Shown here: positions 34,493 through 52,160 of the stretch, in pieces | How positions within the stretch are numbered: the first letter of the stretch is position 1 | Layout: every line of letters starts with the position of its first letter | NCBI GenBank assembly: GCA_035079385.1 | Contig: JAVHKY010000062.1 | Location: 186,001-250,000, forward strand | Origin: Aspidiotus rigidus | Lineage: Eukaryota > Arthropoda > Insecta > Hemiptera > Diaspididae | DNA length: 64,000 bases | Direction: 5' to 3' | Program-made: the position numbers and the translations under genes | The notes under the pieces: model-generated | What the model was told of the DNA's origin: nothing | Databases searched by the model: none | The model's input: only the letters and a program-made list of their open reading frames with translations

Positions 34493-34857
34493 CTAGTTAA
34501 ACACTTTTAATTTGGAATCGACAAACTGACCGCACTGTAGGCAAAATTCGAAGCGAAGGCCACTACATTCCTGACACACGCCGTAACAGCCGCACGGCAC
34601 CAATACGTATTGTCTTCGGCTTTCTCGGCCTCGGCACCAGAAACATCTTTCTTCATCGGTGTCGCCGCGGAGGACGACGACGAAGGTTGGGTCCAGTCTT
34701 CGGCAGACAGGACACCTGAACCGTTCGTCGGCCATCAGCCGCGCGGCACATCGCTGACAACAACAGTAATGCCCGCACGGTATGAAGGCGACCTCGGCGA
34801 CGCTGTCTATGCACACCACACATAACGTGTGAACCGAAGGCTCGGTCGAAGTAGAGT
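34493..34857 (-). CDS. terminal exon: two IAP-type RING modules
   Basis: The exon enters in phase 1 after TTTGCAG and ends at TAA 34493. Module 1 reads CVVCIDSVAEVAFIPCGHYC, then CQRC and later CPVC: C-x2-C-x11-C-x-H-x3-C-x2-C-x11-C-x2-C, the pattern of IAP-family RING E3 ligases. Module 2 reads CFWCRGRESRRQYVLVPCGC, then CQEC and CLQC, the same spacing but with Cys at the usual His position. The family role is recruitment of a ubiquitin E2 enzyme and ligase activity. Only module 1 has the full ligand set. A C-terminal FVDSKLKVFN tail follows. Confidence 0.8.
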
Positions 34858-49800: not shown

Positions 49801-52160
49801 CGCATTTCCTATGCGAGTGAATCATCACAAAAGAAGTATAATATACTCGTAAATACGTATCTCCGTACAACAATGAATTGCCTTGCATTTGCCTAAAAAC
49901 CGATAAGCCGGCAAACTTCATTTTTTCAAAGATTGGTTCCAGTGTGAGAGGTGGGATGACAAATTACTGTTGTATTGTTGTATGTCCCGTACGAAGGAGC
50001 ACGTGGAAAACCTTATTCTGTAAATTGTATTGAAATGAATAATGGTCGTAGGTGAAGTGAAAATTTTGAAGAATGTAAATCAAAAAACGAGAATATAGAC
50101 GGAAGAAAAGCTCGTATTGAAGAACTATCTTCATAATTGAATTGTTTCTTGAAAAAATCTCGTTACAATTAATTTAGTACGTAAGAATTAACCAAATTAG
50201 CCTTATTTTAAAGTAAAATACAATTCTTTGAATACACTTCCACTTATTTATTATTCGTATTAAAATACCGACGTTTCGACTGACCTGCAGTCATTATCGA
50301 CAATATTTCTTAAACACCGTCGATTTCGATACATGCATTACGTGTGTACGTCAGATTCGGATGTAATTGCATTGGTAAAATTTCGTGGAAAGTTACTTTA
50401 AAAGGCAACAAGTAAAAAAAAAAAAAATTGCAGTATAATTTCATCTTTCCTTTCCAAAATTTCCATGAACATAAGAAAACATGTTTCCTTCTCTTTCAAC
50501 CTTTTCAAACTTTCAGAAAAATGTCCACCACATCTTTCTAGAAAGAAATGTAATTGGGGAAAAAAATTCTTTGCAGTATACATCCCAAACGGTAGATGAT
50601 GGCGTATTATTTTCGTAACTATTTCTTAAACAACATTACCAACCGAATATAAAAACCACCAAGAATTAAACAATGAAATTTTGAGAGACGCGTGACTAAA
50701 TTCTTACCTATTCGAAAATATGTACTCGTTTTTAATTTATCTCCTTTTTCCGGTGTACAATTTCGAAGGATTAAAAATATTTCAATGTCAATGACATACC
50801 TATTTTCTCACGTCGAATTCAGGTCAACTTAATATTAAAAACTTTAGGCCTATGTGGAATGTTTTCCAATAATATATGCACCAAACTTGGAAATAATATT
50901 GATGAGTATAGACAACCTGAGAGAGGAAATCAAATACCTATCGAAGGAAAGCAACGTATAATTATTGTTGGAAAAAAAAAAAAATTGATATTGAAGTGCC
51001 TGTTTTTTTGTTAAAGAAAATCGATTCCTCTTGTCACTTGTAATTCGAGATTCATTAATTTGTAATTTTCTAGCATAACGATATGATTTTTAATAAGAAA
51101 ACAAGAACAAAAAAAAAAAAACGTTAGGTACCTATAAAGACAAAACGAAACGTTTTTGAAGAAAAATGTACCGAAACGAAGTAACGAAATGGCAGGTTTA
51201 CAAACGTAACGAATGAAACGTTATATGAAATTCATTTAGTTTACATTCCCTGCTTTTCAGTGTGACTGAAAAAAAAAAAAATTACCTACTGCATTTTCGC
51301 AGACATTACGCAAACAATATAAGCCAATTTTCTCGTATCGTACGTCATGGTGGGTGGGTACCCGACACTTTGAGATGGTCAACTTCGTATTCCATAAGTC
51401 ATGTAAAAAAATTTTTGTTCTTACTCTTTCAGTTTTTCTGAAACGAAGAGGGCAATGTCCCCGACCATGCCTCGGAAGAAGGGCACCGTTTCTCCTTCCG
51501 TCCTGTCTGCAAGTGCAGTAGTTAATTCCGGATATTGACTCAAAAGATCGCCCCAATGAGCCATTGAAGTTGGACTGGAGGGGAGCCGGCTAAGACGCCA
51601 CTTCAACATTTGGTCGCTAAACCGGGCGTATGGAATTTGTATTGAGTATTCGTCGGGAACGCTGAGGAAAAAAGGTACGACTTCATTTACGTCTACACTT
51701 GAAGCACAGGAATTTTACGAATTTAATAATTACCTAATAATTTCTGAATCGTAAATTACACGTAACGGTGTCGACTCACTAAGACATCTCTCTCTAATTC
51801 GATCGATCAGGACTTTACGTCCGATTTCGAGAGAGCTGTCCGGGCCCAGTTGTCCGTGCCCAACGTGGACCCCATTCGGGATCGATAGTATCCTGAGAGT
51901 CTCCTCATCAATTACGACTAACATAAATGTTCAACACGAATGTAATGAACTATTGCAAGATGCTGATTACAAAGCAAATATTACTATACGAGACAAGGAA
52001 ATCTTAGTATCTTACTCGTCGATGTGCAAAATTTCTTCTTGCATTTTAGGTAAAGCCGCCCCGGTCTTCGCTGATTTATAATGTACATCTCGTTTCTGAA
52101 GCAGTAATTATTACCACGGCCACTTCTGACCGTGGTAACAAATTCCTCTTCATCCGCCAT
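34493..52160 (-). CDS. FLYWCH-MULE transposase-like protein with exon array and C-terminal RINGs (32 exons)
   Basis: Exons, 5' to 3' on the minus strand: 52160-52016, 51917-51734, 51661-51425, 49326-49215, 48465-48268, 46313-46103, 45559-45365, 43968-43921, 43765-43682, then 17 exons of 90 bp (43539-43450 stepping down by 232 to 39827-39738), 39446-39378, 39049-38966, 38458-38390, 37742-37683, 37435-37322 and 34857-34493. They sum to 3705 bp, about 1234 residues. All junctions have GT/AG ends and matching phases, and there is no internal stop.

The start ATG (52160) has an in-frame TAA four codons upstream. Domains: FLYWCH finger (residues about 6-80), MULE-like domain (about 190-430), acidic segment, repeats (about 470-980), linker, two RINGs (about 1115-1230).

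Likely role, inferred: DNA binding plus a transposase fold joined to an E3 ubiquitin-ligase-like end. It may be a transposon gene or a domesticated one. Small extra phase-1 exons could have been missed. Confidence 0.75.
34858..37321. other. last intron of the RING gene, filled with repeats
   Basis: 35560-36910 holds the unclassified repeat also seen at 26193: phrases GCGTCCGGGTGCATGACCTT, GCGGAGCGAGTGAGCCCT, and an end near GACATGAACATGATC with TTTGGCTCTGCCA. A small fold-back lies at 37009. No coding exon could be supported. Confidence 0.45.
37009..37077. mobile_element. 69-bp hAT-like mini fold-back
   Basis: Starts CAGGGGCGGATTTACGGG and ends with the complement (CCCGTAAATCCGCCCCTG). CAGGGGCGGAT is a common hAT MITE terminus. 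Flanks TTTTATAT and TATAATAT match at 6 of 8 positions, a decayed duplication at best. Almost the whole element is terminal repeat. Confidence 0.6.
37322..39446 (-). CDS. exons 27-31: duplicated linker exons, Ser-rich and basic
   Basis: Five phase-1/phase-1 exons. 39378-39446 encodes SSNILAMIDLAQEMAATGSS, 38966-39049 encodes HSTVDRPGAV then RERLTRKRPRRQPPN, 38390-38458 encodes SSNISATIDLTQEMAAVGSS, 37683-37742 encodes SSSNRYPEEDFAYAFTSLD, and 37322-37435 encodes SCTVGTTVSRRGRGSGRRTR and on to APSRPHN. The first and third are clear duplicates inside a segmental duplication of about 1 kb (38.1-38.6 versus 39.1-39.6 kb). The two basic exons also look related. The Arg-rich exons could serve as nuclear localisation or nucleic-acid contacts (inference). 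Exon 38966-39049 has an alternative acceptor at 39019. Confidence 0.65.
39630..43680 (-). repeat. 232-bp tandem array carrying 17 copies of a 90-bp exon
   Basis: Seventeen units of exactly 232 bp, each with a 90-bp minus-strand exon at 39738+232k to 39827+232k (k = 0 to 16). Acceptor ACAATTTGCAG, donor GTAAGTACC, intron 142 bp. Each exon is phase 1 at both ends and encodes 30 residues: AHDVGNNV(G/R)AGGRSSTSF followed by NGGHP(M/R)TSS(I/L)SV. Units differ at only about seven sites in exon plus intron. The repeats would add about 510 Gly/Ser/Asn-rich, probably disordered residues between the transposase-like domain and the RINGs. Copy number should vary between alleles by unequal crossing-over. 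The lowest copy has His to Leu (GGLPM). Confidence 0.85.
43682..43968 (-). CDS. exons 8-9: acidic linker
   Basis: Exon 8 (43921-43968, 48 bp) encodes EVEYVDEEEDLARSD. Exon 9 (43682-43765, 84 bp) encodes EERGN followed by a near-uninterrupted Asp run and PSDGTVSV. Both are phase 1 at both ends. Exon 9 has the same 3' end and following intron as the 17 repeat exons and sits exactly 232 bp from the last of them, so it appears to be the diverged founder or edge copy of the array. The region is predicted to be disordered. Confidence 0.75.
43969..45364. other. intron 7, no further exon identified
   Basis: Contains poly-A (about 44771) and poly-C (about 44871) runs. No additional phase-1 exon was found by eye, but a short one could be hidden here, which matters because the RTNNxxE motif is missing. 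Confidence 0.35.
45365..51661 (-). CDS. exons 3-7: MULE transposase-like domain
   Basis: Exon 3 (51425-51661) has MVGDIALFVSEKLKE. Exon 4 (49215-49326) encodes ISIDGTFKAVPNIVGAKQLL, the first catalytic-Asp block. Exon 5 (48268-48465) encodes AVPCVWAVLK, then FKTDFEDSLIKAL with the second Asp, and the C-x2-H signature GCWFHYMQ. Exon 6 (46103-46313) continues ALPLLPASDFGVGIE and FDRFLAYLRHQWLP. Exon 7 (45365-45559) follows with YAQFLAGNMPYWQQTW.

The usual RTNNxxE block, which supplies the third catalytic Glu, is not recognisable; the corresponding stretch reads WSFKQHDRAL. Introns are 0.5 to 2.1 kb. Loss of the third acidic motif would argue for a non-catalytic or domesticated protein, unless an exon was missed. 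Confidence 0.75.
45679..45833 (+). CDS. candidate plus-strand terminal exon inside intron 6, unknown
   Basis: After the acceptor TTTGTTCGTAG the frame reads SLYPEIIERCLQNLWDRYVV, then FKQVVRQTKLKKF, LLVDYVKPP and a TAA stop. Composition looks protein-like and helical. It is antisense to the MULE gene, in the intron between exons 6 and 7. No family, start or partner exons were recognised, so it may be a relic or chance. Confidence 0.25.
46314..48267. other. intron 5 with a Penelope-like fold-back
   Basis: 46870-47045 is an inverted repeat (arms TAACAATAAAAAGACATTTT and its complement) surrounding CCCCTGAAGGAGAAGCG and GAAACGTCGGG, a degenerate hammerhead core (CTGAAGGA instead of CTGATGA). 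The rest holds no recognisable feature. Confidence 0.5.
49327..51424. other. intron 3 with a Penelope-like pseudo-LTR trace
   Basis: Around 50220-50345 the minus strand reads GATAATGACTGCAGGTCAGT then GAAACGTCGGT, a degenerate hammerhead segment typical of Penelope-like pseudo-LTRs. Nothing else is recognisable apart from short A-runs. Confidence 0.4.
51734..52160 (-). CDS. exons 1-2: FLYWCH zinc finger
   Basis: Exon 1 (52016-52160) encodes MADEEEFVTTVRSGRGNNYC and then RPGRLYLKCKKKFCTST. Exon 2 (51734-51917) continues IVIDEETLRI and GVHVGHG. The order F-x-(S/T)-x-(R/K)-G, Tyr, Leu-x-C-x5-C and H-x2-H is that of a FLYWCH C2H2-type finger, which binds DNA and commonly precedes MULE transposase domains in animals. 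The intron between them splits an Ile codon (A + TC). Residues after the finger (KVLIDRIRERC, then STPLRVIYDSEIIR) resemble the helical linker usual before the transposase domain. Confidence 0.75.

Follow-up and report, generated by a model that had tools for sequence, protein, structure and literature searches.

Does a gene that joins a transposase-like core to an E3-ligase-like end belong to a transposon, or is it a host gene born from a transposase? The question is raised by a 64,000-nucleotide stretch of DNA from the diaspidid insect Aspidiotus rigidus (assembly GCA_035079385.1, contig JAVHKY010000062.1, positions 186,001 to 250,000; hereafter the window, in whose numbering positions without a contig prefix are given), where a minus-strand gene running from 52160 to 34493 combines a MULE (Mutator-like element) core, a long repeat linker and two RING modules. 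A preliminary description of this locus had left both options standing. The present analysis bears out the first and not the second: three near-identical 58-kb copies, an empty site and target-site duplications (TSDs), the latter seen in two of the four copies, place the gene inside a mobile element, and it is quite likely the transposase of a giant, very recently moved DNA transposon of the Mutator superfamily, 57.9 kb in length.

A 58-kb element in near-identical copies

The genome searched comprises 441 Mb in 102 contigs (C62 being the window contig, and C6, C31, C63, etc. the others). The catalytic exon E5 (best 150 of 606 candidates scored) is present at 100% identity in three places, in the window and in C6 and C31, and pairwise comparison of these loci delimits a whole mobile element of 57,905 bp at 1898..59802, with full-length copies at C62:187898-245802 (the window copy), C6:4112247-4166442 and C31:2296900-2353173. 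The copies are pairwise 99.8–99.9% identical from about 1898 to 59802, interrupted only by the length of an exon array, and each pairwise identity breaks off at the same two ends, give or take a few bases. Outside the exon array, 70 alignment columns vary over 53.8 kb, including 25 substitutions (9 seen only in the window copy, 13 only in C6, four of these in its outermost bases, and 3 only in C31). The 16 non-repeat exons (2310 nt) carry none of the 25 and are identical across the three copies; at that density, finding none in a sequence of this length is close to the chance expectation and, therefore, provides no evidence of selection. At an insect-like substitution rate of ~3e-9 per site and generation, the window and C6 copies would have split of the order of 60,000 generations ago.

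A fourth, shorter copy in C63 has kept both ends (left at 184520, right at 216861), which lie 32.3 kb apart. Its ends were read directly and its interior was deduced from search coordinates, with no listed match to window stretches 34400-39660, 45300-52200 and 52200-58700 (best 40 candidates each). Since an identical stretch would have topped these lists, this copy appears to be devoid of the gene, and it was most likely moved in trans.

Direct traces of insertion are provided by two of these loci. The C31 copy is flanked on both sides by a perfect 8-bp TSD, TCAGAGCG, and the C63 copy by a perfect 10-bp TSD, GCAGGAACAC. When the C31 flanks are joined with a single TCAGAGCG, they give an unbroken match to C62:890903-891215 (query positions 1-305, 96%, across the junction at 200), which appears to represent a related empty site for this copy. 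The element combines two hallmarks of the Mutator superfamily, a MULE domain with a DDE triad and TSDs (at two of four copies) within the 8–11 bp range.

The two ends are built alike. A left terminus of 21 bp (1898..1918, plus strand) precedes the first CCGAC unit of a left array at 1919..2298 (plus strand; 21 YCGA units, mostly 15–16 bp apart), and an equal offset of 21 bp (59782..59802, minus strand) separates the right terminus from the first CCGAC unit of an inverted right array at 59369..59781 (minus strand; 25 YCGA units). The first unit spacings (12, 16, 15, 16) agree at both ends. Motif units number 21 and 25 at the ends vs. a maximum of 10 in 127 equal-sized internal bins, and units followed by another at a distance of 15, 16 or 32 bp number 18 and 20 vs. 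a maximum of 1 internally. The inverted similarity between the ends is found at the level of motifs rather than base by base (best local match 35 bp, 83%); thus, the ends carry the terminal inverted repeats (TIRs) of Mutator elements at motif level, as well as foldback-type composite ends made of short tandem repeats. Genome matches of the ends (15 at 14 places for the left, 8 for the right) reach down to 77% identity, and so older relatives of the element exist.

The left half of the element harbors other mobile elements: a plus-strand hAT element at 4392..6848 (BED finger at 4392-4925, hAT dimerisation domain at 6459-6848) and retroelements at 13112..25293 (a tyrosine recombinase at 13112-13642 and a reverse transcriptase at 14689-15561 on the minus strand, reverse transcriptases at 19513-20613 and 23863-25293 on the plus strand), which have been carried along, as they lie inside the stretch common to the three copies. 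With respect to cargo genes, six-frame Pfam searches of 7001-11990, 28600-33590 and 52201-57190 gave no match at or above cut-off; the sub-threshold matches in the last of these were TRAF_BIRC3_bd (0.0039) and Exo_endo_phos_2 (0.0024). Outside the gene and these stretches, the element was covered through nine chosen open reading frames (ORFs), and cargo there is possible. Rfam searches at gathering thresholds gave no match, and a tRNA search found none.

The exon chain and the predicted protein

Joining minus-strand blocks at GT-AG sites from 52160 to 34493 yields 33 exons with 3840 nt in total, or 1279 codons, with the sole stop at the end. All 32 introns are GT-AG and 28 of them are in phase 1, including the last 27, i.e., every intron from E6/E7 via the linker to the last exon. 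The preliminary description had proposed 32 phase-compatible exons with a stop-free frame of about 1234 codons; the compatible phases, the open frame and, in outline, the exon chain have stood, whereas both the exon number and the length had to be revised upon rejoining.

All exons lie on the minus strand. The FLYWCH-like N-terminal part (51425..52160) is encoded by E1 (52160-52016), E2 (51917-51734) and E3 (51661-51425); the MULE catalytic core with the two D of the DDE triad (48268..49326) by E4 (49326-49215) and E5 (48465-48268); and the remaining transposase (45365..46313) by E6 (46313-46103), E7 (46016-45882), which carries the E of the triad, and E8 (45559-45365). E9 (43968-43921) and E10 (43765-43682) specify an acidic linker (43682..43968). 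It is continued by a tandem array of 232-bp units at 39663..43690, in which each of the units R1–R17 contributes one in-frame 90-nt phase-1 exon, and by five further linker exons (37322..39446), namely T1 (39446-39378), T2 (39049-38966), T3 (38458-38390), T4 (37742-37683) and T5 (37435-37322). The last exon (34493..34857) holds an IAP-type (inhibitor of apoptosis protein) RING, a second RING-like module and the stop. A dispersed repeat at 35548..36915, inside the T5–RING intron, is absent from the matching stretch of a paralog in C28. Two further repeats were observed within introns and around linker exons: 46833-47050 in the E5–E6 intron is a short dispersed repeat with self-matches on both strands (resembling a miniature inverted-repeat transposable element) and many genome copies, and the surroundings of T3 (38099-38563) and T1 (39134-39535) form a duplication of ~465 bp, ~77% identical.

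A scan with strict phase-1 criteria, comparing 6.8 kb of the gene strand with 32.4 kb of control sequence, returned three candidate exons in the former, all three belonging to the model, and three in the latter. It missed the weaker exons T2, T4 and T5, as well as E10, whose donor lies just beyond the scanned stretch. The diverged paralog adjoining a RING exon in C28 backs T5, T3 and a portion of T4; T2 is the weakest exon, supported by its likeness to T5 only.

Domains were assigned by Pfam on the joined protein with the exon array cut to two units, the RING modules and the N-terminus being also run separately. This profile hidden Markov model check, suggested by the preliminary description, recovered MULE and RING on the translated model, with FLYWCH remaining sub-threshold. 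The MULE domain is found at 5e-12 (46.5 bits, cut-off 27.6), and the triad residues D201, D265 and E381 are invariant in an alignment of six proteins (the present one and five relatives) that continues across the E3/E4 to E7/E8 joins, in agreement with the transposase fold originally proposed. Searches for relatives of the protein, each with ~8000 candidates scored, gave 6 proteins, 1 protein (the query) and 5 proteins, respectively, and the named relatives among the listed matches are from insects. The two RING modules also hold up: zf-C3HC4_3 matches the joined protein in two stretches (4.3e-16), and both modules pass the cut-off when run separately (4.4e-13 for the first; 8.2e-7 and 29.2 bits for the second, cut-off 27). 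The first covers positions 3-44 of the 49 in zf-C3HC4_3, has a complete set of C3HC4 zinc ligands and is closest, among solved chains, to the IAP RING of BIRC2 (4e-7). The second, as read, follows C-x2-C...C-x-C...C-x2-C...C-x2-C, with a Cys at the position expected for His. AlphaFold on the last exon alone gave no usable fold (pLDDT, the predicted local distance difference test score, of 31).

The large repeat linker that had been noted at this locus proved to consist of the 17 tandem 90-nt exons, and its length varies between copies. The 232-bp unit is present 17 times in the window copy, 10 times in C31 and once in C6, always in frame, corresponding to expected protein lengths of 1279, 1069 and 799 residues, while the remaining 58 kb are nearly constant. 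As R1–R5 and R6–R10 share the order of their diagnostic variants, a five-unit block was probably duplicated. A dispersed satellite was considered as a source of the array and rejected, since the unit has only two matches outside the three copies, C4:10963011 (84%) and a short one, C28:512241 (79%; 5/5 candidates).

How such a protein might work can be outlined from its parts. The FLYWCH-like part would bind the units of the end arrays; the protein would pair the ends, and its RNase H-like core would cut and join them, as the intact triad and the known behavior of MULEs suggest. The tandem exons would alter the linker in steps of 30 residues with the frame kept, and the RING pair, held on this long variable tether, would mark proteins for destruction. 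The RING pair most likely serves as an E3 ubiquitin ligase whose targets would be either host proteins involved in silencing the element or the transposase, with the His-lacking second RING possibly serving as a structural partner of the first; a purely structural role of the pair, as a dimerisation module, is possible. The complete picture, that of a self-mobile animal Mutator of ~60 kb whose fused putative ligase removes silencers or times its own destruction, while the array tunes the tether between core and ligase, is offered only tentatively.

Transposase, cargo or host gene

Several observations weigh against the reading of the gene as the transposase of its own element. The exon chain is a sequence-based prediction, and the ligase activity is putative. 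The FLYWCH finger of the preliminary description, although no other Pfam family matches the first 90 residues, does not reach its cut-off (0.0033; 18 bits vs. 23.6). The window and C6 copies lack an adjacent TSD (two of the four two-ended copies), which a loss of DNA during insertion, or a swap of sequence among copies, could explain, and the joined C6 flanks, which match two other repeat families, gave no unbroken match to an empty site (best 40 of 880 candidates). Modules of the gene also occur apart: seven copies of the FLYWCH-like E1–E3 module lie at C39:2032193-2051397, where no MULE exon is listed, and a RING locus in C28 has no listed E1–E3 (56/56 candidates), E6–E8 (73/73) or E5 (best 150 of 606). 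Finally, E5 also matches MULEs elsewhere in the genome, in at least 147 places (best 150 of 606), and these might provide a transposase.

How far these points carry can be judged against the rival explanations that they favor. If a transposase had been domesticated as a host gene and spread by segmental duplication, this would account for the many introns, the long linker, the paralogs of E1–E3 and RING elsewhere and the TSDs missing at two of four copies. Such a gene is expected to be immobile, at a single locus and without element ends, and none of this is seen here: the same ends recur at unrelated flanks with the inverted arrays exactly there, TSDs bound two copies, one of them the 32-kb, apparently gene-less C63 copy, and the C31 empty site largely refutes this explanation. 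Accordingly, both the host-gene and the segmental-duplication readings were rejected on the TSDs, the empty site and the end arrays, and we regard them as very improbable. A second alternative treats the element as a giant composite that is non-autonomous and depends on another MULE for its movement, with the 33-exon gene as mere cargo; it draws on the abundance of other MULE matches and on the movement of the apparently gene-less C63 copy. It is improbable in view of the presence of the gene in all three full-length copies, with 16 identical non-repeat exons and an intact DDE triad, and of the lack of any other E5 match above 45% identity among the best 150 of 606.

A different doubt concerns the unity of the protein, as the exon chain may have linked two adjacent genes, one with the MULE part and another with the RING tail. 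At C28:3955923-3957698, the order RING exon, T5, T4 (in part), T3 is kept in stretches of 80–89% DNA identity, without the repeat of the T5–RING intron; with no listed E1–E3, E5 or E6–E8 nearby, this locus indicates that the RING tail also exists apart. Against a two-gene origin stand the uniform phase 1 of the last 27 introns, the whole linker included, and a single annotated protein of Nilaparvata lugens, LOC111044840 (P0003; 519 amino acids), with MULE at 73-166, RING at 466-513 and an RGRG-rich stretch ahead of the RING, which demonstrates that a MULE protein with a RING end exists elsewhere. This precedent, along with T3, T5 and part of T4 lying next to RING in the diverged paralog, supports the earlier proposal of a single model containing both MULE and RING, and we consider the two-gene explanation rather unlikely. 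The preferred reading, therefore, is that of one gene encoding the transposase of a mobile element.

Diverged relatives of individual gene parts were observed throughout the genome. RING-exon copies are found at C28:3955923-3957698 (84% amino acid identity), C28:3855185-3855867 (80%) and C29:11380345-11380985 (69%), the latter two with a stop; those in C28 have linker-exon stretches alongside, and no MULE exons are listed with the C28 and C29 copies. Six of the E1–E3 copies in C39 are spaced by 1.2–1.6 kb and the seventh lies 11 kb further, with 76–90% amino acid identity, 18 of 21 exon matches free of stops and no MULE exon listed there; upstream sequence accompanies two of them (92% to 52202-53063 and 88% to 52208-52657). 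These copies are possibly FLYWCH-only genes able to repress the element. At C18:3806013-3807447, E5, E6, E7 and E8 are matched exon by exon on one strand (41–50% amino acid identity), representing an intron-bearing relative of the transposase, and C2:5576387-5577314 contains five partial E7 matches ~205 bp apart, a third tandem amplification of gene pieces after R1–R17 and C39. Many of the other MULE matches to E5 (at least 147; best 150 of 606) lie in open frames of 300–600 codons, with several identical sets.

Known relatives and significance

Several described elements share part of this organization. Muta1 and Muta5 of Aedes aegypti (Phantom group) have a MULE transposase, 8–9 bp TSDs, a short terminal motif with 9 subterminal repeats and non-autonomous derivatives; in the TIRs of Muta1, the repeat is 12 bp long, occurs 9 times and is separated by 3–4 bp spacers, and the ends described here follow this Phantom-group plan; the Aedes elements differ in being 3.2–3.5 kb long, in encoding 504–554 amino acids in 2–3 exons, in carrying 9 repeats per end vs. 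21/25, and in that the accessible part of the paper does not mention RING (PMC5225508). Tm1 Mutator/Foldback elements of root-knot nematodes combine FLYWCH with a MULE transposase and have composite TIRs with a ~14-bp motif, asymmetric terminal motifs and 9-bp TSDs, but are far smaller, with a 496-amino-acid transposase and no words starting with 'ring' in the text (PMC3169594). In the Ghost clade of aphids and spiders, one aphid element has, next to a MULE transposase whose DDE domain is uninterrupted, an ORF with a RING zinc finger; these are, however, two separate ORFs on a short scaffold, incomplete and with TIRs and TSDs not found, as far as the accessible text goes (PMC6446971). The Nilaparvata protein shares MULE, a C-terminal RING and the preceding RGRG-rich stretch with the present gene, yet it has one RING, no FLYWCH match and 26% identity over 35–36% of the query at its 519 amino acids. 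According to the accessible part of the same Ghost paper, Rehavkus is MULE-related with a minisatellite in its C-terminal part and TIRs of 26–400 bp, but has a PHD finger in place of FLYWCH/RING and a 9-bp TSD (PMC6446971). Among the giant mobile elements of eukaryotes, Teratorn (PMC6431247) and Starships are about as large as this one or larger; in the sources as available, the former is a piggyBac–herpesvirus fusion and the latter are tyrosine-recombinase elements, both with many genes vs. this gene and nested transposable elements in the scanned parts.

A 2026 survey of arthropod MULEs gives sizes of 1.4–10.0 kb, and its main text has no words beginning with FLYWCH, RING or intron (PMC13359780). 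From the portions of these sources available, MULEs with foldback-like ends and a FLYWCH-like finger were already known, as was the association of RING with MULE (two ORFs in aphid Ghost, PMC6446971, and the Nilaparvata protein P0003). As far as seen, the element is new in its size, in its gene of 33 exons with a double RING joined to it, and in an exon array that varies between copies; a literature search, largely without subscription papers, found among the papers listed no animal MULE this large and no MULE–RING fusion protein.

A 58-kb unit that moved recently and has both TSDs and an empty site offers a way to test how a MULE can move so much DNA; candidate enablers are its end arrays, which are of unusual length, and the fused RING tail. 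If the element is related to Ghost, RING-linked MULEs, so far described without ends, would gain an example with ends. The exon array, with 17, 10 and 1 units in otherwise near-identical copies, provides a natural experiment on the rate of change of an intron-containing coding repeat.

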